A DNA stretch of 22,689 nucleotides from a virus, in IMG/VR virus record IMGVR_UViG_3300044530_000576, positions 1-22,689 of that record; one strand, given 5' to 3'. This document shows positions 3,857 to 18,010 of the stretch, one piece after another (position 1 is the stretch's first letter; the number at the start of each line of letters is the position of its first letter). The position numbers and the translations under genes were made by a program. A model generated the notes under the pieces. That model ran no database searches and was not told the origin of the DNA. It saw nothing but the letters and a program-made list of their open reading frames with translations.

Positions 3857-4090
3857 CTAAGCCGCCGTCAGCTTCTTCAGCAGGTCATACCGAAATCCAG
3901 ACCAAGACTGCTCCCCGGCCACCACCACCGGAAGCTCCGAAAACCCCATGGCCTTGCACTGGTCCAGGGCACCGGAATCCTTGGTCACATCGACTTCGGT
4001 GTATCCGACCTGAGCCTTACGCAAGACCATCTTGGTGCTGTCGCAAGCTATGCATTGGGGCGCGGAAAAAATCTTGATCTGCACTTTCAC
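3857..4090 (-). CDS. nrdH: NrdH-type glutaredoxin-like protein
   Basis: A 77-residue thioredoxin-fold protein starting at GTG 4090, which overlaps the upstream stop as GTGA. It has KIFSAPQCIACDSTK, with redox pair Cys13-x-x-Cys16 at the start of helix 1, then YTEVDVTKD, SELPVVVAG (the cis-Pro position) and WSGFRYDLLKKL near the C-terminus. The WSGFRxD element is characteristic of NrdH redoxins, which reduce class Ib ribonucleotide reductase to supply dNTPs and in turn take electrons from thioredoxin reductase. No NrdE or NrdF gene is in the window, so it would serve the host enzyme. The CIAC active site departs from the common CVQC/CMQC; a general glutaredoxin role is the alternative. Confidence 0.85.
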   Translation of the reverse strand: MKVQIKIFSAPQCIACDSTKMVLRKAQVGYTEVDVTKDSGALDQCKAMGFSELPVVVAGEQSWSGFRYDLLKKLTAA

Positions 4091-4467
4091 TCCCTTGGGA
4101 TCGTTTTACCAAAAGCGGGAAACTGCATGTCGGGATGCCTTTTCTGGAACTCCTGCAAGGTAATCCGTTCAGGCTCTTGCAGTTCCGCTTGCTTGGCATC
4201 GGCAGCAGTTTCGCGCTCTAACCGTAGCTTGCGGCACTCGCGGGCGGTCTGAACCAAGACTTTCGGCGTGGGTCGCCAACCTGGGTCACCATGCACCCGG
4301 TACATGACCCGTACTGCCATGAGAACGTCCTCTAGAGAGTCGATCCCTGCCGACTCTAGGGATTCTGCCCAGGCGCACACCATCGCCTCTGTCTGTGGCA
4401 GATAGGGGTCATAACCGATGCACTTGCTGATCGCGTCTATTGCGAGGTTCTTGTAACTGGTTCTCAT
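4087..4467 (-). CDS. Helicase-loader-like replication partner
   Basis: A 126-residue protein from ATG 4467, which overlaps the TGA of the initiator gene (ATGA). A longer frame up to 4605 is a shadow of that gene. Residues 1-75 are helical, with YLPQTEAMVCAWAESLE and LEDVLMAVRVMYRVHGDPGW followed by RPTPKVLVQTARECR. Small all-helical proteins directly downstream of a phage replisome organizer are commonly helicase loaders or loader inhibitors of the G39P type, and the conserved-looking region fits that general form. The C-terminal 45 residues are charged and then Pro/Phe-containing. The assignment depends mainly on position and coupling; no ATPase motif is present, so it is not a DnaC-type loader. 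Confidence 0.5.
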   Translation of the reverse strand: MRTSYKNLAIDAISKCIGYDPYLPQTEAMVCAWAESLESAGIDSLEDVLMAVRVMYRVHGDPGWRPTPKVLVQTARECRKLRLERETAADAKQAELQEPERITLQEFQKRHPDMQFPAFGKTIPRE

Positions 4468-5312
4468 TCCGGCTCTTTCATTGCCTGAAGGTTGACGATC
4501 TTCTGATCGACTGTGGATAGCCGCTGACCGGTGTTGGTGACGCGGCGTTCGTACTGCGGCTTGCGGAACTCCCGGCGCATCCAGCCCCGCCAGGTGGCAT
4601 CCCAATCAAGTTTGGTTCCCTTGGCTCCCGGCTGGGAGTGCCAGTAGTCGCAGAACTGTCGATGCTCAGACTCCCACTCACTGCGAGTGATGTTGGGGAA
4701 CTCTTTGCGCATCACTTCAATGGTCTGGTCGCTTGGCATGTAGGAATCAGGGATACGGCCACCGCGTGTTCGGGCTACCGCTTTAGCGGGAGCCGTTTCG
4801 GTTGTCGGGATAGCGGGTACATCTCCCCCCATACCCCCCTCTACAACAGTTACTTCCGTACTTACTTGAGTAGTTATATTTCCCTTTCCTTTTCCCTTTC
4901 CCGACTTGTAGTTTCCTTGCTCATGTTCGGAAATTCCTAGCTTATTGGGTATGCGCAGGTCAGAGATTGATTCTGGGTCGTCGTATGTGGGGAACCTGAG
5001 AGAAGCCCGTCTTTGGGTGGTTTGGTGGTCATCCCACGTTGGGATGCAGAAGTAGTGCCGTTCCCGCACGGTGTAGAACACCACTGAGTATGCGTCCCGC
5101 ACTTCTGCCAGCATGAGCAGAAGCTCATCCTTGGTGATGCCGTCTGAGTCTGGGAAGGCCATGCCCAGCAAGCCGTTGATGTTGGTTTCTCCGATGCCCC
5201 AGTCATTAGCCCAGCACCACATGGCGACGTACAGCAGCCGCGCTCTAGGTGAAGCTCTTGCCGTGTCAGGGGAGTGGAAAAACTGCGGCTTGATGGTGCG
5301 GATGCGCGGCAC
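4464..5312 (-). CDS. Phage replication initiator / replisome organizer
   Basis: A 282-residue protein starting at GTG 5312, with GGGGAG 10 nt upstream. The N-terminus MPRIRTIKPQFF, followed by ARASPRARLLYVAMWCWAND, is the typical opening of phage replisome-organizer proteins with a winged-helix DNA-binding domain (to about residue 115). Residues 125-185 are a low-complexity linker (GKGKGKGN, then Thr/Val/Gly-rich). The C-terminal part carries W-x-FxxYW...GxKxxWxxxWxxW (about 213-245), the DnaD-like motif that contacts helicase machinery. It would bind an origin and recruit the host or phage helicase with the help of the downstream loader-like protein. A promoter (5397-5425) and inverted repeats lie just upstream. 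Confidence 0.75.
   Translation of the reverse strand: MPRIRTIKPQFFHSPDTARASPRARLLYVAMWCWANDWGIGETNINGLLGMAFPDSDGITKDELLLMLAEVRDAYSVVFYTVRERHYFCIPTWDDHQTTQRRASLRFPTYDDPESISDLRIPNKLGISEHEQGNYKSGKGKGKGNITTQVSTEVTVVEGGMGGDVPAIPTTETAPAKAVARTRGGRIPDSYMPSDQTIEVMRKEFPNITRSEWESEHRQFCDYWHSQPGAKGTKLDWDATWRGWMRREFRKPQYERRVTNTGQRLSTVDQKIVNLQAMKEPE
4879..4940. other. Candidate replication origin segment inside the initiator gene
   Basis: Within the linker-coding part of the initiator gene lies a tandem 11-mer TTTCCCTTTCC (4879-4889 and 4891-4901, 12-bp period), next to an AT-richer run, and then GGAAATTCCTAG at 4929-4940. The same 12-mer is present in inverted orientation at 5338-5349, upstream of the gene. 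Phage origins are often located inside initiator genes, as in lambda O, at a linker where repeats are tolerated. This makes the segment an origin candidate. The repeats could instead be simple by-products of the Gly-Lys codons. This is inference from position and repeats only. Confidence 0.35.
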
Positions 5313-5337
5313 TTGCTGGTTACTCCCCGGTGAGTAG

Positions 5338-5369
5338 CTAGGAATTTCCTAGTCGACGCAAGGAAATTC
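5338..5369. repeat. Inverted repeat with nested palindrome upstream of the replication initiator
   Basis: GAATTTCCT at 5342-5350 and AGGAAATTC at 5361-5369 are perfect 9-bp inverted arms around a 10-nt spacer. The left arm is also part of a separate near-perfect palindrome, CTAGGAATTTCCTAG (5338-5352). The structure lies in the 5' leader between the promoter at 5397-5425 and the GTG at 5312. It has no downstream U-run, so a terminator is unlikely. An operator for autoregulation or an initiator binding site is more plausible. Confidence 0.6.
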
Positions 5370-5396
5370 ATTGACTGGTGTGTGGTTCCGACAGGG

Positions 5397-5425
5397 ACCG
5401 TAGTGTCACACAATGTCAGAGTCAA
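5397..5425 (-). promoter_or_regulatory. Sigma70/SigA-like promoter for the replication initiator
   Basis: Read on the minus strand, TTGACT (5425-5420) is followed by a 17-bp spacer and TACGGT (5402-5397), which fits the mycobacterial TAnnnT -10. The -35 contains the TGA stop codon of the upstream Zn-ribbon gene (5424-5422). Transcription would begin near 5390, leaving a leader of roughly 75-80 nt that includes the inverted repeat at 5338-5369. The spacer holds CTGACATTGTGTGACAC, two TGACA half-sites that might be an operator. Confidence 0.55.
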
Positions 5426-5610
5426 GCAGGCTGGTCAGCGTTTTCCTCAATCGGCTTTCCGGCTTGCTGGATCAGCGGTGTGCGAGCCACAGGAAACTTC
5501 TCTATGCACAACGGGCAAAACTTGGTGATGTAACGAAACCGTTCCTCTGGCCCGGTGTCACCAGCCCACGCCATTCCACAGCGGATGCACCTATGCCCCG
5601 TCATAGACAT
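5422..5610 (-). CDS. Zn-ribbon microprotein
   Basis: A 62-residue protein from ATG 5610, preceded by GGTGGGCGC. A GTG at 5658 is possible but would overlap the upstream gene by 38 nt. The core is HRCIRCGMAWAG, then KFCPLCIEKFP: two CxxC knuckles 24 residues apart, a zinc-ribbon layout. The C-terminal 20 residues are polar and acidic and probably disordered. It is the last gene of the operon that starts at the 6266-6294 promoter, and its stop codon forms part of the next promoter. Role unknown. Confidence 0.65.
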   Translation of the reverse strand: MSMTGHRCIRCGMAWAGDTGPEERFRYITKFCPLCIEKFPVARTPLIQQAGKPIEENADQPA

Positions 5611-5620
5611 GCGCCCACCA

Positions 5621-6013
5621 TTAGATTGTCTCGCTACCGGGCCGTGACTTGAACTCACCGGGATTCAGCGCTTGCACGCAGATGCTTTCCGACCCAAACT
5701 CGTTGACGATCTGCCGCACGAACTTGGGGTAGCTGTCAGCCTTGGCGTTCTGGTCTAGTGAGTGTTTCTTCATCCATGGGTACTGCTTGTTGAGGCTTTT
5801 CCGGCAAATTTTCATGGCGACAGGAATGTCCCAGATGTAGACCCGCTCCCCTGCCATGTAATCCATGAAGTCGCGGGTTTCGTCAAAGCTGCACATGAGC
5901 TTGTTGTGGTAGACCGACAGCACTGCCGCGAGCCGGAACCTGCGCCCTATGGAAGTTTCTTGATTTCCAGGTGGGTTTCCAGTGTCAAGATCGGACGGTG
6001 GCAATCTCCGCAT
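5621..6013 (-). CDS. DUF7736-like phage protein
   Basis: A 130-residue protein from ATG 6013, chosen because AAGAAGG sits 7 nt upstream; ATG 6043 would extend it by 10 residues. After a polar N-terminus, the domain runs RRFRLAAVLSVYHNKLMC, DFMDYMAGERVYIWDIP and CRKSLNKQYPWMK. From memory this matches DUF7736-type actinophage proteins: a hydrophobic opening helix, a YMxG turn, a Trp-x-x-Pro element and a terminal Cys/Pro helix. Their function is unknown. The start overlaps the upstream Zn-protein gene by 67 nt. The C-terminal third carries a conserved-looking FGSESICVQALNPGEF strand region. Confidence 0.6.
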   Translation of the reverse strand: MRRLPPSDLDTGNPPGNQETSIGRRFRLAAVLSVYHNKLMCSFDETRDFMDYMAGERVYIWDIPVAMKICRKSLNKQYPWMKKHSLDQNAKADSYPKFVRQIVNEFGSESICVQALNPGEFKSRPGSETI

Positions 6014-6222
6014 ATCGTTACCTTCTTGTTGAATTGTCGCCACAATTTCAGGTAGGTATTCAATGCTTCAAGCCCGCGTTGTAGATGCTGCTCGCAGAGC
6101 AGTACGGGCTGTTTGTCATTGCATCCTTGTGCGATTACCACGGCGGGCGATTCGCACATATCGCATTGCGGCGCATATTGGTGGACCGATAGGTCTACGG
6201 AATCTAGCTGGGAGTTAGCCAC
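5947..6222 (-). CDS. Small Zn-binding protein (CxxC...CxxH...CxxC)
   Basis: A 91-residue protein starting at GTG 6222. Ligand candidates are QCDMCESPAVV, LLCEQHLQRGL and VTICGDCHRPI, giving CxxC-xxPA, CxxH and CxxCxR in the same order as the protein at 2985. A helix (LEALNTYLKLWRQF) separates the second and third knuckles. It is the first gene after the promoter at 6266-6294 and overlaps the DUF7736-like gene. The tidy Cys/His spacing makes a folded treble-clef-like zinc domain likely. Binding partner unknown; a host-takeover or DNA-binding role is only a guess. Confidence 0.68.
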   Translation of the reverse strand: MANSQLDSVDLSVHQYAPQCDMCESPAVVIAQGCNDKQPVLLCEQHLQRGLEALNTYLKLWRQFNKKVTICGDCHRPILTLETHLEIKKLP

Positions 6223-6265
6223 CCGTGCAGGATACCGCGTAACGTGTCAGTCTTTGGCCTACGCC

Positions 6266-6294
6266 ATTTAACCTGTCGTGTCAGGCATTGTCAA
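6266..6294 (-). promoter_or_regulatory. Promoter for the Zn-protein / DUF7736-like operon
   Basis: On the minus strand TTGACA (6294-6289) is followed by 17 bp and TTAAAT (6271-6266). The -35 is a consensus hexamer and includes the TGA stop of the HNH gene (6293-6291). The spacer contains CCTGACACGACAGG, with CCTG/CAGG arms, and a further CTGACACG occurs downstream at about 6248-6241; either could be an operator. The start site would be near 6259, giving a leader of about 37 nt to the GTG at 6222. Confidence 0.5.
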
Positions 6295-6647
6295 GACGCA
6301 GTGCGATATCCACCGTGCAGATCAAGAAACACCACTTGCTCGTTGTACCAGACTGCCACCGGAACCTCACCGGGTTCATCGGAGCCAGCCACCGACAGGC
6401 CAAGTTTGTACGCCCATTGTGGGTACAAAGTCGCTTGCTTGTGACATTGCCAGCACAGCCCGATGATGTTGCTGGGGCACCATGCTCCACCCTGACTGCG
6501 GTACTTACGGTGGTGCATCTCATCCAGCGAGCGCTTACCGCAAAACTCGCACACCGGATTCACCGTGTCTATCCAGGTGGGCATCATCATTTCGTAGATC
6601 AGGGTCGAGCGCTTTCGCACTAGTTCGCGGGTGCGCTTTTCACTCAT
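6291..6647 (-). CDS. HNH endonuclease
   Basis: A 118-residue protein whose ATG 6647 overlaps the upstream stop as ATGA. The nuclease core is complete: VCEFCGKRS (Cys33, Cys36), EMHHRKYRSQGG (His45, His46), an Asn in PSNIIGLC, and LCWQCHKQA (Cys65, Cys68, His69). This gives the beta-beta-alpha-metal fold with a structural zinc. The N-terminal 25 residues are basic and helical. The gene ends the exonuclease/annealing operon, so it may nick or process DNA in recombination or replication. Phage HNH proteins also assist terminase, but the distance from virion genes makes that less likely here. A free-standing homing nuclease is another option. Confidence 0.85.
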   Translation of the reverse strand: MSEKRTRELVRKRSTLIYEMMMPTWIDTVNPVCEFCGKRSLDEMHHRKYRSQGGAWCPSNIIGLCWQCHKQATLYPQWAYKLGLSVAGSDEPGEVPVAVWYNEQVVFLDLHGGYRTAS

Positions 6648-7000
6648 CGACCTACGCGCAACAACTCCGACTCCGCTCGTACAAGAGCGGCGGCGCTGCG
6701 TCCTACGTCAATTCTGACTCGGAGTGTGTCAATCTTACGCTTATGCGCTTTAACAAGAGTCTCTGCAAGCTCCGTAGCAAGACGCTTTTCGGACGTGTCA
6801 AGAAGCGTCTGCTGCTTGCGAACCTCCACCGCGCCGCTATTAGAGAGGAACGCCGTCGCGTAGGCGAGGGTGTACTCCTCTTTGGCCTCCACAGCATTCT
6901 TCTCAAGATCATCAAGCTCATCCGATAACTGCTGCATGGACCTTGATAGGGCTAGCAGGTTCAGCATGACCTGATTGGGGTCTAGTTCATTGCGAGGCAT
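6644..7000 (-). CDS. Conserved actinophage coiled-coil protein
   Basis: A 118-residue protein with ATG 7000 overlapping the upstream TGA by one base (TGATG). It is almost entirely helical with heptad-like spacing (LNLLALSRSMQQLSDELDDL, then AVEAKEEYTLAYATAFL). A basic closing region, VKAHKRKIDTLRVRIDVG, is followed by RSAAALVRAESELL. I recall this type as common in mycobacteriophages next to recombination genes, always without an assigned function. The position between the annealing protein and the HNH nuclease suggests a structural or adaptor role in DNA processing. No catalytic motif is visible. Confidence 0.72.
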   Translation of the reverse strand: MPRNELDPNQVMLNLLALSRSMQQLSDELDDLEKNAVEAKEEYTLAYATAFLSNSGAVEVRKQQTLLDTSEKRLATELAETLVKAHKRKIDTLRVRIDVGRSAAALVRAESELLRVGR

Positions 7001-7680
7001 CAGAACAGTTCATCTTTGTTAGGTGAGCTAACGGATTCAGCTAGCGGGTCGGCATCTTGAGCAGCTTCCAGCACAAGCTGCTGGGAAAACTCTAGTATGT
7101 CCTCCGCTGAAGCTTTGGTAAGAACTGCGTTGTCATGCTCATCTGCATACCTCTTAGCCACTTCAGCAGTTTTCAGTTTGTGCTTTACGCAGATGCTTTG
7201 AAGTGAATCCAGTGCATCCTGGTTTGCTGCGCGCGTGGGTTCAGCAGGCTTTTCCCGGCGAGGCTGTTGCTTTCTTTCGTAGCCTCCATGAGTGTCGGCT
7301 TTAGCCCACAGTTCTAGTGCCGCGCCGAATCGCATGGCGGCATTTCGGAGGGCATCTCCAATTGCCTCCTTTTTGGCATTACCACCAGTTTTGCCACCAG
7401 CGTCCCCGACTCCAATTCGGGTCACTCCGCATACCGTCAGACGAATCCACAGGCAGCCGTCTTTGTCGAACTTGGGCAGCCCGTCGTCATCTAAAGCGAA
7501 CGGCTCCCAGGACCACAGGGGGTCTATGTCCAGCAGCCTGCCAGTTAAATGCGCGTGGCCTACAAAGTCGAGAGTCACCCCACCCTTGGGGAGCTTCCCT
7601 ATCTGTTCAGGCGGGAACGGCTCTCTCAGCAACTCAAGACGCTCATAGAGGTCTTGCATGTCGTGTTCTGTGGTGGTCAC
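7000..7680 (-). CDS. Putative single-strand DNA annealing protein (Rad52/Erf-like)
   Basis: A 226-residue protein from GTG 7680, directly after the exonuclease stop (TAAGTG). Residues 18-130 form the conserved part: LREPFPPEQIGKLPKGG, LTGRLLDIDPLWSWEP, LWIRLTVCGVTRIGVGD and KKEAIGDALRNAAMRFGAA. The opening PFPPEQI, the central beta strands and the KxxxGDALRNAAMRFG helix are the arrangement of Rad52/Erf-type annealing proteins. Residues 130-226 are charged with helical pieces and probably carry oligomer or partner contacts. Paired with the upstream RecB-type exonuclease it would make a two-component (Red/RecET-like) recombination system. The exact superfamily is uncertain without a profile search. 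Confidence 0.65.
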   Translation of the reverse strand: MTTTEHDMQDLYERLELLREPFPPEQIGKLPKGGVTLDFVGHAHLTGRLLDIDPLWSWEPFALDDDGLPKFDKDGCLWIRLTVCGVTRIGVGDAGGKTGGNAKKEAIGDALRNAAMRFGAALELWAKADTHGGYERKQQPRREKPAEPTRAANQDALDSLQSICVKHKLKTAEVAKRYADEHDNAVLTKASAEDILEFSQQLVLEAAQDADPLAESVSSPNKDELF

Positions 7681-8607
7681 TTACTTTCCCTTTGCTCTGG
7701 AAATGACGTTCCTCTTGGACAGCCGCATCTTGCGTGACTGCGTGATCCCGGCGCTAAGCTGGGCAAGCCGCCAGCCCTCATCCAAGTCCATTGGATACAG
7801 GGCGCACTCTGGATCACCGCCACCGTTAAACGGCAGATGAATCAGCACACCCTTGCTGACGTTCAGGTCAGGGTGAATTGGTTCACGCGCACCGGTTTCC
7901 TGGTCGTATTTGACCGACCGGGCATAGATAGCTACCTGGATGGTGGGCTTCATGGCAAAGTCTGGATCGGACTTACCGGATTTGATATCGGCAACTACAA
8001 CCTCCCCGGTTTTCTTGTCCCGCAGTAGCCGGTCAAAGTTACCGGCGCACCGCAGATCGGCTGGACTGCCAGGATTTTCTAGGTCATCGCAGACTACGAA
8101 ATACTCATCGCCCAGTATCTCGTAGCGGGAATGCACGGCTTCTGCGTAGCAGTCGAGCCAGGGTTCCAACTGATCAACCGGATAGATTATCTCAGCGCCG
8201 ATATCTTTCAGGTGGCACAACCGGTGAATAGCTGTCCCGATTCCAGCCTTGTGCTGATCCCCACCGATTTTTTCTGCAAGCGAAAGCAAAGACTTGACCT
8301 CTTGCTTTGCTTTGGCCCACGGGTCATCGAACTCGCTGACCAGTGCGCGGAACTGCCAAGCCAAACTCTTGTCACGAACCACCCCGAATACAGCCTGGGC
8401 CTGCTGGTAGTTCTTCAGGTTGTCTTTGGTGTCGAGGTTGCCCGCGATTGAGGATGGTCGGTCATAGAGAAATCCGTTGACCGGCTTGTCGACACCCGGC
8501 TCCCAGGTGAGCGGTCCACCGTCACGGGTGATCCACGGCTTGCCATACGGTCCTCGCTGAATCGCGTAATCGGTCACGGTCGAAAGGCTAGTGCCACAGT
8601 CCGACAA
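7681..8607 (-). CDS. PD-(D/E)xK exonuclease (RecB/Cas4-like)
   Basis: A 308-residue protein from TTG 8607, supported by GGAGTG 7 nt upstream; a GTG at 8577 lacks a ribosome site. RecB-family nuclease motifs appear in order: GTAIHRL (His128), AGNFDRLL (Asp192), VVVADIKSGK (Asp207, Lys209 as the D-x-K pair) and IQVAIYARS (Gln224-xxx-Tyr228). This is the lambda-exo/RecE/Cas4-type fold that degrades one strand of duplex DNA. The first 115 residues are a helical lead-in. It heads a co-directional operon with the annealing protein and would generate the single strands that protein pairs. The C-terminal 40 residues are basic. Confidence 0.82.
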   Translation of the reverse strand: MSDCGTSLSTVTDYAIQRGPYGKPWITRDGGPLTWEPGVDKPVNGFLYDRPSSIAGNLDTKDNLKNYQQAQAVFGVVRDKSLAWQFRALVSEFDDPWAKAKQEVKSLLSLAEKIGGDQHKAGIGTAIHRLCHLKDIGAEIIYPVDQLEPWLDCYAEAVHSRYEILGDEYFVVCDDLENPGSPADLRCAGNFDRLLRDKKTGEVVVADIKSGKSDPDFAMKPTIQVAIYARSVKYDQETGAREPIHPDLNVSKGVLIHLPFNGGGDPECALYPMDLDEGWRLAQLSAGITQSRKMRLSKRNVISRAKGK

Positions 8608-12100: not shown

Positions 12101-12130
12101 ACGTTAGCACCCCGTGTCAATAGCTGTCAA
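12101..12130 (-). promoter_or_regulatory. Leaderless-type promoter for the DUF6197-like gene
   Basis: On the minus strand TTGACA (12130-12125) is followed by 18 bp and TAACGT (12106-12101), a TAnnnT -10. Only 6 nt separate the -10 from the ATG at 12094, placing the start site at or next to the A of ATG. The -35 contains the TGA stop of the upstream Xis-like gene (12129-12127). A second TTGACA lies inside the spacer and may be part of an operator. Confidence 0.55.
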
Positions 12131-12426
12131 CCAAAGGGATTGTAAACGGGTGCTGCGGCAGCAACCGGCTGAGCCTTCTGAACCGGCTGCGGAGCGCGCT
12201 GTGAATCACCAGGCTTGGGCACATAGCAAGTTCCTGTACCCGTAGTTACCTTGATGTTCTCCGCAAGGAACGCTTCTATATCTTCAGCGCGGATGCGTAC
12301 TACTTGTGGTGATAGCCTCAAAACACCCAGCTTCCCATCGCGGATATAACGCCGCAGTGTGCGTGGGTGAACGCCTAGTTGTTCTGCTGCCTCAGAAATT
12401 GACAACCATGTCTCTCCATTAGCCAT
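12127..12426 (-). CDS. MerR/excisionase-type HTH DNA-binding protein
   Basis: A 99-residue protein from ATG 12426. Residues 6-60 are a winged-helix of the MerR/Xis class: TWLSISEAAEQLGVHPRTL, RRYIRDGKLGVLRL, VRIRAEDIEAFLAEN. The SxxEAAExLGVxxxTLRRYIRDGxL string is diagnostic for this class (excisionase, AlpA-like). The C-terminal 35 residues are Pro/Gln/Ala-rich and disordered, ending NPFG. It may be an excisionase or a transcription regulator; no integrase is present in the window, so excision is not shown. A TACACT element 7 nt before the start suggests a leaderless transcript. Confidence 0.78.
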   Translation of the reverse strand: MANGETWLSISEAAEQLGVHPRTLRRYIRDGKLGVLRLSPQVVRIRAEDIEAFLAENIKVTTGTGTCYVPKPGDSQRAPQPVQKAQPVAAAAPVYNPFG

Positions 12427-16243: not shown

Positions 16244-18010
16244 TCAGCTAATCAGGTGTACGCCGACATTCTGAATTTGATCCAAAGCCTTGCGCATAAG
16301 GTTTGCAAGACGCTCACCCATGCTCATCCCTGCCTTGTCCTTGCCGCAGCGCACAAGAAACTCCCGGTCTACCCCACTACCGGAAAGAGTCATTTCCTCC
16401 ACCTGATTCACAAAGATCAGATCAACGCCAAGCCTTTGCATTGCCCCTGCGGTGGAACCGATACGGTCACCGATATTGAAATGCAAGCCGGGTATGGGCC
16501 AATGATCATCGCCAATGACCATAGTGTGCGAGGTTGTTGATGAAGTAGCTTTGAAGCCACCGCGAATAGCGGCGAGAGCGGCCAGCGACCAGGCATTGTT
16601 TTCACCACCCTGCTGGTAAATCTCATGCAAATGAACCCATCCCAAGGAATCAGCGCGGGCAGTATTTTTCAATTCATCCCACGCCAAAATTGTGCCAGTT
16701 AGGAAAGGCATAATAATGTCGGCAGCCATATCCCCCAAAGCATCAAAACCAGCCAGCAGGAAATACCCAAGCAGATTTCCCACCGATTCAATAATCAACT
16801 GTGCGATTGCATCTGCTGTCGGGTTGTTGCCACCGACAATCACTGAAACTGCTGTAGCAGGGCTATAACTGACCTTGCTTTGCATGTCCAGATATCTGCT
16901 GTCTCGCACCACAATGCCAGGTGCAGCCGACAGGGTACTCATCCAAGAACCCTGGTAATACTCGTCGGGATAAAACTCAGAACTATCTTCCGAAACCTTG
17001 ATGCTGTCCTCAACGAAACCGCTGCCGTAGTCAATAACTGACCGGACAAGACCCGAAATGACAGTGCCGTCAAAGAACGTGCCACCGGGCAGAGTCCACC
17101 CTGATCGGTCCACAACCTCAAGAACAAGAGCGCCGTTTTTCACGTCATAACCCAGACCGTCAGCGCGCTCACCATCGACAGTCATCACCCGCCGATACAC
17201 AATGCTCAACTGAGCGTCGTCCAAAGCGTCGGCAACCACGGTGGATACCGGGTCCATTCGGCTAGCCAGCAGAGTCCACAGTGAATCATCCTGTAGGAAA
17301 TTCACTCCCTTGACATGAACTTGCCAGGAGCCAACATTGAAAAGATCAAGCCACTGTTCGCCGTCAAAAGGATCATCCGGCATGGTCCACGGGTGACCCT
17401 CTAGGCGAATTATCTGCTCCAAAATCAAGGTGCTAACGCACCAGCGGGCAGGCCCAAATAGGAAATGCACCCGTGGAAATTGAAAAATGGGAAGCGGTAG
17501 CGCAGGGTTGGGTGGAGCGAGCATGAAGTCGAGGAATTGCAGATCGTCATTAAAGGTGGCTGTGATGTAGTCGCTACCCTCGCGGGTTTCCACGTCCCAG
17601 TGGTGCATAAGTCCTGACCACCGCAAAGCGCCGCCATACATATCCACGGTGACAATTACGTTCTTGCAAGATGCGGGATCATTGGGAATGCTGGCTATCT
17701 TTTTAGCAAGATAATGACCAGCGCGAACAGAAATTACACCCGAACTGCTTCTATTGTTTTTCCAGGGAAACTCGTAATTGTCTGAGTCGGTCAGGTCGAT
17801 CTGACCCAGATAAATGAGGCCGTCGTCTGTTTCACCGTTTGGGGGGTTTATCCACAGCCTCACCTTGGGCATCGCCTTCTTCAGCGACCTCTTTCGGTGA
17901 AGATGTTCTTGTATCCGTGGCCGTGCAGCGTCAAGCTGCTTAAGCTTCAGACCATCTTCCTCCCCTTCCAGGCCAACTGGAAGGGTAAATGGAAACGTCG
18001 AGGTTGTCAT
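16244..18010 (-). CDS. Minor tail protein (Gp37-like / Tal type)
   Basis: A 588-residue protein whose ATG overlaps the upstream TAA by one base (TAATG). Its first part is beta-rich (VRLWINPPNGE, then GLIYLGQIDLTD). The size, the position after the small tail proteins and segments such as VEDSIKVSEDSSEFYPDEYY, QGGENNAWSLAALAAIRG and MVIGDDHWPIPGLHFNIGDR match the Siphovirus ReqiPepy6 Gp37-like family. These large minor tail proteins are the tail-associated component in many actinophages, forming part of the tip or baseplate. A hydrophobic stretch at about 405-435 may help in membrane contact. No catalytic residues are evident. Confidence 0.75.
   Translation of the reverse strand: MTTSTFPFTLPVGLEGEEDGLKLKQLDAARPRIQEHLHRKRSLKKAMPKVRLWINPPNGETDDGLIYLGQIDLTDSDNYEFPWKNNRSSSGVISVRAGHYLAKKIASIPNDPASCKNVIVTVDMYGGALRWSGLMHHWDVETREGSDYITATFNDDLQFLDFMLAPPNPALPLPIFQFPRVHFLFGPARWCVSTLILEQIIRLEGHPWTMPDDPFDGEQWLDLFNVGSWQVHVKGVNFLQDDSLWTLLASRMDPVSTVVADALDDAQLSIVYRRVMTVDGERADGLGYDVKNGALVLEVVDRSGWTLPGGTFFDGTVISGLVRSVIDYGSGFVEDSIKVSEDSSEFYPDEYYQGSWMSTLSAAPGIVVRDSRYLDMQSKVSYSPATAVSVIVGGNNPTADAIAQLIIESVGNLLGYFLLAGFDALGDMAADIIMPFLTGTILAWDELKNTARADSLGWVHLHEIYQQGGENNAWSLAALAAIRGGFKATSSTTSHTMVIGDDHWPIPGLHFNIGDRIGSTAGAMQRLGVDLIFVNQVEEMTLSGSGVDREFLVRCGKDKAGMSMGERLANLMRKALDQIQNVGVHLIS

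Follow-up and report, generated by a model that had tools for sequence, protein, structure and literature searches.

IMG/VR record IMGVR_UViG_3300044530_000576 is a viral DNA fragment of 22.7 kb (22,689 nucleotides, the entire record; hereafter the window), in which a short palindromic sequence is found both inside a replication initiator gene (4464–5312, minus strand) and in the leader of that gene. The sequence-only reading of this DNA raised the question of whether the repeated element is an origin of replication or an autoregulatory site. Comparison with related genes suggests that an actinobacterial-type phage likely starts its replication here, from an origin that lies within its own initiator gene, in the part coding for the linker. 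All of the support for this assignment comes from sequence and prediction.

Linker DNA of the initiator gene

The gene encodes a 282-residue protein that, according to PHROG profiles and a structure model, comprises a winged-helix N-terminal domain, a disordered linker and a helical C-terminal domain that may be DnaT-like. The linker (residues 127–164) has a predicted local distance difference test (pLDDT) score below 50 and is encoded by positions 4821–4934 (minus strand), the proposed origin DNA. This segment overlaps the internal palindrome and covers a purine tract and an AT-rich stretch; along the gene, the order is palindrome, GCAAGGAAACT, purine run and AT-rich stretch. No purine run in the window is longer than the 24-nt tract GGGAAAGGGAAAAGGAAAGGGAAA (4879–4902, minus strand); the next has 17 nt. 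The tandem 11-mer that the sequence-only reading placed beside the internal copy, TTTCCCTTTCC at 4879 and 4891, is this coding-strand purine tract; that reading thus saw part of the tract, and missed that, of the two halves of the element, this is the better conserved one. The GGAA density of the linker is 6 per 60 nt, compared with 3 or fewer elsewhere. When the protein was kept fixed and codons were drawn from the gene's own locus, this level was reached in 0 of 200 shuffles, with a null mean of 2.0 GGAA per 60 nt.

The AT-rich stretch at 4841–4880 (67.5% AT) is the proposed unwinding element. Duplex stability, calculated from nearest-neighbour values, is lowest at 4845–4944 among all 100-bp segments of the window, and the region ranks second at 30 and 50 bp. 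An easily melted segment (the least stable 100 bp) and a strand-asymmetric tract (the longest purine run) are both found beside the sites. The disordered linker in the model and this stability minimum support the earlier reading of an origin inside the initiator gene. A G-rich block, TTGTAGAGGGGGGTATGGGGGGAGA (4822–4846, minus strand), has nearly identical DNA in phages Panchino, Ksquared and Brujita; these three have similar C-domains, and in Charlie the position is taken by runs of C instead.

GGAA tracts and repeats in related genes

Side-by-side reading of single phages showed that the corresponding linker contains repeats and a tandem tract of G and A. Relatives were collected by N-domain alignment scans (the best 80 of 304 IMG/VR loci, and 28 loci of cellular genomes). 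The resulting 113 open reading frames (ORFs) with at least 60 residues past the N-domain, including the window and five added phage records, were grouped into 81 clusters at 70% identity, and loci selected by pattern were excluded from this set. The synonymous null described above was applied to each cluster, with an excess defined as a level reached in 10 or fewer of 200 shuffles; P-values were not corrected for the number of tests.

The GGAA tract is above the synonymous null in 70 of the 81 clusters, with 0 of 200 shuffles reaching the observed level in 57, including the window. Four or more GGAA form a tract in 71 of 81 clusters, and 59 of these 71 use all three reading frames within a single tract. 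Such density is rare in other ORFs of at least 150 residues, in any frame, from the same loci, where 5 or more GGAA per 60 nt were found in just 13 of 1361. In a wider set of 140 clusters, which is partly circular because it includes the pattern-selected loci, the density peaks in the linker in 127 and ties in 6. The DNA before the tract has excess repeats in 53 of 78 testable clusters; together with the palindrome and the asymmetric site in the window linker, this was taken as evidence of repeat sites. The comparison therefore supports the earlier suggestion of an origin inside the initiator gene, since repeats and a GGAA-rich purine tract occur at the same place in relatives, beyond what coding needs.

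The spacing of GGAA varies between relatives over a range of 4–8 (mostly 4, 5 and 8). Attempts to tie the array type to the C-domain were rejected, as it is found with either class of C-domain, DnaT-like or other. A G-quadruplex as the common property was likewise rejected; 23 of 71 tracts contain a G3+ motif, and the window contains none. Three relatives (L102, L114 and L050) contain too little GGAA, yet short tandem repeats (GGACCAA, CCTACGA and GGAGAGAAAC) occupy the corresponding position. In the phage contigs L019, L020 and L021, two adjacent ORFs match the initiator N-domain profile.

The 8-mer array of actinophages

The commonest form of the tract in actinophages is (GGGGAACA)n, with a period of 8. 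The tract is best regarded as a DNA signal, since this period runs through all three frames. A scan of IMG/VR with GGGGAACAGGGGAACAGGGGAA identified at least 120 stretches with the array. Among the matches listed, 185 of 191 (overlapping) fall within the homologous ORF and on its coding strand; they come from 117 of the 120 stretches. In two of the three remaining stretches, no more than 170 nt separate the match from the locus end, and the gene start may therefore be cut off. The third exception, L198, lies outside any initiator ORF and away from the locus ends, and has other GGGGAAACAAGG repeats around it. The reversed control pattern was found in two stretches, which have the same flanks and no N-domain profile match in either. 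Among the matches listed, 116 array ORFs with at least 60 residues past the N-domain collapse to 69 clusters; hence, the 120 stretches are not independent.

In the whole genome of Charlie, the array is confined to the initiator gene. Related genes also occur in the circular records phiM2, pCGR1 and pA, and that of phiM2, a Streptomonospora plasmid, contains GGAACTTCC sites and the array. The phage contigs L139, L148 and L173 each match the GGGGAACA array pattern at two places that do not overlap, which corresponds to a longer or double array. The longer array or its peptide was not found in the open-licence papers searched, of which four print GGGGAACAGGGG and are all, by title, on unrelated subjects.

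Repeated sites in the window and their counterparts

The 12-mer GGAAATTCCTAG is present exactly at 4929–4940 (plus strand), inside the initiator gene, and inverted at 5338–5349 (minus strand), in the leader, as the sequence-only reading had described. These are its only two copies in this 22.7-kb fragment, rather than the many copies that were to speak against a role in replication. Allowing up to two mismatches, there are four matches (1.12 expected; four were reached in 1 of 100 shuffles). The exact inverted match is really 14 nt long (GGAAATTCCTAGCT, 4929–4942 and 5336–5349) and so comprises three overlapping 12-mers; no further exact inverted 12-mer within 500 bp was found beyond it. Inverted 12-mers at this distance are not rare by themselves, with a chance mean of 0.8 (30 shuffles). 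The likeness of the internal and leader copies extends to 31 nt with 77% identity (4912–4942 and 5336–5366).

The internal palindromic site (4926–4943) has the core GGAANTTCC at 4929–4937, and the second, asymmetric site GCAAGGAAACT is located at 4910–4920 (minus strand). In the leader, the 12-mer copy falls within the perfect palindrome CTAGGAATTTCCTAG (5338–5352; 7+1+7), the proposed operator; such palindromes are not rare either (two in the window, 1.7 per shuffle). The 9-bp arms of the leader inverted repeat noted earlier (5342–5350 and 5361–5369) are indeed exact. AGGAAATTC has three exact copies in the window, two in the leader and the other at 17295–17303. GGAANTTCC is found at two places only, 412 bp apart; at least two sites anywhere occurred in 9 of 300 shuffles and two within 500 bp in 0 of 300, for a pattern picked post hoc.

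The GGAANTTCC core recurs in the linkers of relatives, which also argues for an origin. Ten copies are found in the 150-nt linkers of the 81 loci and 18 in the rest (0.82 and 0.021 per kb, respectively), compared with an expectation of 1.3 for the linkers when their content of GGAA and the frequency of TTCC in each locus are taken into account. The ten sites are distributed over 9 of 81 clusters, namely the window and eight others, and these include a Dermatophilaceae bacterium, Corynebacterium and Nocardiopsis. The other leader site of the window, the 15-mer ACGCAAGGAAATTCA (5356–5370, plus strand), is found exactly in the linkers of Rhodococcus phage ReT1v and of the IMG/VR contigs L011–L013, and GCAAGGAAACT is a word common to the linkers of the ReT1v-like contigs L011 and L012. 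CTAGGAAATTCC was not found in the fetched loci besides the window's own pieces.

Other lineages, read by eye, have other words (GCGCGAAAC, TCGCGAG, CACGCGT and CTCACGGA). In Panchino, 10 of 14 strand matches of CTCGCGAG lie inside the initiator gene, which makes up 2% of the genome, and in Charlie two of three copies of TTTGCGCC do so. Across 71 clusters, 8-mers of the linker repeats are enriched within the gene, with 20.6 per 1000 positions between +50 and +100 and about 41 between +150 and +250. At least two matches to linker words precede the linker in 46 of the 71 clusters; the second group of the window is located in the leader instead.

Sites are common to phages with similar N-domains. 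Genes with a similar C-domain and another N-domain (phage contigs L004 and L005, plasmids pCGR1 and pA) have, by eye, other linker repeats, which is the pattern that recognition of the repeats by the N-domain would give. In L004 and L005, other inverted repeats are accompanied, again by eye, by another tandem tract (AGATACAGAAGC; AACCATTA), and therefore the two-part plan may reach beyond GGAA.

The initiator protein

The initiator matches two PHROG families annotated as 'replication initiation protein', PHROG 2149 (E 8.5e-39, residues 2–222) and PHROG 1408 (E 7.4e-34, residues 1–251). The matches span the N-domain and the linker, and the protein was accordingly assigned to these families. A Pfam search up to E 0.1 returned no family, neither RepA_N (PF06970) nor that of lambda O, for which Pfam includes a model. 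An NCBIfam search with six proteins gave no match, and a sequence search of the PDB with the whole-protein profile gave just two weak, unrelated rows. No close relative of the window was found by megablast against phages, a search that may omit the records nearest the window's own, and a single-protein scan for relatives yielded two loci only, both weak.

The N-terminal winged-helix domain (residues 1–120; 4952–5312, minus strand) is modelled with pLDDT block means of 76–97, is 65% identical to that of ReT1v, and is the presumed binder of the palindromes. A Foldseek search with the window model placed the Rep-DNA complex 5kbj and the initiator 4pt7 in the top rows, with weak E-values of 0.38–0.54; VIA-align gave Z-scores of 6.0–6.5 for 4pt7, 5kbj and 4pta, and many other winged helices score alike. 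Since the Foldseek E-value is about 0.4 and such Z-scores are common to many winged helices, this likeness serves as a lead rather than a test. The C-terminal helical domain (4563–4760, minus strand) is DnaT-like by sequence profile: its profile A6 matches DnaT/PriI chains in the PDB (E 0.0015), and 9 of 28 aligned members match Pfam DnaT (PF17948; best 3.9e-5), although the window's own C-domain does not. Foldseek with the C-domain returned no DnaT among the three matches with E ≤ 10 and so lent no support at the level of fold.

Upstream of the initiator on the same strand, genes for a single-strand annealing protein and an exonuclease (PD-(D/E)XK) form a recombination module (7000–8607, minus strand).

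Leader sites and possible autoregulation

A promoter-like sequence, TTGACT-N17-TACGGT, is located at 5397–5425 (minus strand), and the leader sites start about 27 bp downstream of it. The pattern TTGACW-N17-TANNNT, which has a relaxed second hexamer and was applied after the sequence had been seen, has its sole window match here (0.16 expected; at least one in 16 of 100 shuffles). A sigma-70 scan of 4000–6500 gave no promoter by the rule of the tool. The leader sites are probably an autorepression operator, a role assigned with less certainty than that of origin. The autoregulatory site put forward earlier stays plausible because of the promoter-like sequence just upstream, and is weakened by the absence of leader enrichment in relatives. 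Leader sites as a general rule were rejected, since in relatives the linker 8-mers are enriched inside the gene and at background in the leader. The leader copies consequently look particular to this phage.

Opposing evidence and alternative explanations

Several observations weigh against an origin at this place. The window tract is a variant and not the 8-mer. The window linker before the tract has no excess of repeats (0 repeat pairs, null 0.6), and holds a single palindrome plus a single asymmetric site, which falls short of four iterons. Among the relatives, 25 of 78 clusters show no excess repeats and 10 of 81 have no GGAA tract by type. Within the 150 nt upstream of related genes, the linker 8-mers are at background (2.5–4.5 compared with 3.9 per 1000 positions, 71 clusters). 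In Charlie, CGGCGCG is common genome-wide, with 3 of 82 copies in the gene (1.7 expected). Cumulative GC skew, for which a change point had been proposed as a check, shows no turn at the initiator gene within the 22.7-kb fragment; the whole-genome extremes of Charlie and Panchino are located away from the gene, and the maximum in ReT1v-2 falls 369 bp past it. With no turn at the gene in the window, Charlie or Panchino, GC skew was dropped as an origin marker.

The palindromes could instead constitute an operator system only, read by the initiator or another phage repressor, with the linker copy as a second operator and the origin elsewhere. Two sites do lie in the leader beside the promoter-like match, and the window contains an excisionase/MerR-like helix-turn-helix gene (12127–12426). 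We regard this explanation as unlikely: it leaves the purine tract, the low duplex stability and the conserved linker position unexplained, and the repeat words of relatives are enriched in the gene, not in the leader. The linker might also be simply a low-complexity protein segment, in which codons for G, E, K and Q give purine repeats by chance or slippage with no role for the DNA. Some purine bias is expected, because the linker is disordered and rich in G, K, E and N, and the synonymous null itself contains GGAA at the mean given above. The codon null is nonetheless exceeded in most clusters, the 8-mer array spans three frames, GGAA stays while the peptides vary (GKGKGK, GTGEQGNR, EGKEGK and NGNGNG), and the density is seldom seen in other ORFs; we regard this explanation as very unlikely.

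An array maintained by homologous exchange, as a recombination seam for swaps of N- and C-domains rather than for origin function, is very unlikely, even though the proteins are modular. The window N-domain is close to those of ReT1v and Charlie (59–65% identity) and its C-domain to those of L194 and L124 (49–50%), whose N-domains are of another type (compare Ksquared and Brujita), and the array is found with DnaT-like and other C-domains alike. The lineage-specific repeats that precede the array are not accounted for by exchange, and the window tract is not the 8-mer. Distant phages have different GGAA arrays, with spacings of 4–8, which points towards convergence on a property.

Relation to known origins and proposed mechanism

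Origins embedded in initiator genes are already known from pSK41 and lambda. In the staphylococcal RepA_N plasmid pSK41, an N-terminal winged helix of about 120 residues binds four Rep boxes located centrally in rep, the linker is the part encoded by the origin, the C-domain is thought to be host-specific, and the domains are likened to DnaD (PMC5703833). The window initiator is similar in a linker encoded by the proposed origin and perhaps in its N-domain, modelled as a winged helix; it differs in having a C-domain whose profile resembles DnaT, in belonging to a phage rather than a plasmid, and in lacking a Pfam match. GGAA arrays are not mentioned for pSK41 in the available part of that source (PMC5703833). 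The lambda origin lies in the middle of the O gene, where four inverted repeats bind O and are followed by a 40-bp AT-rich tract with purines almost all on one strand (PMC5043065, PMC7466680). Sites followed by a purine-asymmetric tract inside an initiator gene are common to both systems. In contrast to lambda, the sites here are 9-bp palindromes or lineage-specific words, the initiator is without a Pfam match, the tract common in actinophages is not AT-rich but a tandem array of 8 bp that is rich in G, and the window adds leader sites.

For the extrachromosomal mycobacterial prophages Miko, Rachaly and Jeeves, a cis-acting origin within or beside repA was inferred by the authors, with a RepA related to plasmid RepA and no repeated motifs identified in the region they examined (PMC7157519). 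A proposed origin in or near the initiator gene is shared, and this RepA is treated as a separate family by description only. In the DnaA-trio of bacterial oriC, short repeats specific to one strand adjoin the double-stranded sites of the initiator. The repeat here is GGAA-based and the initiator unrelated, and single-strand recognition is a proposal.

In the proposed mechanism, the winged-helix N-domain would bind the GGAANTTCC and GCAAGGAAATTC sites as an oligomer, and its binding would, judging from duplex stability, open the adjacent purine/AT tract. The DnaT-like C-domain, or a partner, might then hold the single-stranded DNA and help to load the host helicase. When abundant, the initiator may, less surely, repress its own gene through the two leader sites downstream of the promoter-like sequence.

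More tentatively, and with somewhat more doubt than confidence, we propose that many phages of Actinobacteria and other phyla share a two-part origin code in the initiator gene. It would consist of lineage-specific palindromes after the N-domain and a common strand-specific GGAA array (spacing 4–8), which would act on single-stranded DNA as a counterpart of the DnaA-trio and be recognized, whatever the C-domain, by either the initiator itself or a factor of the host. Neither the shared GGAA array nor its use as an origin locator, nor a description of this plan in these phages, was found in the open-licence papers searched. A signature that points to about 150 bp in many phages would open the way to direct origin mapping, plasmids based on phage origins and strand-opening tests in GC-rich genomes, and the linker would be a case of coding sequence shaped by a DNA signal whose period is not a multiple of three.
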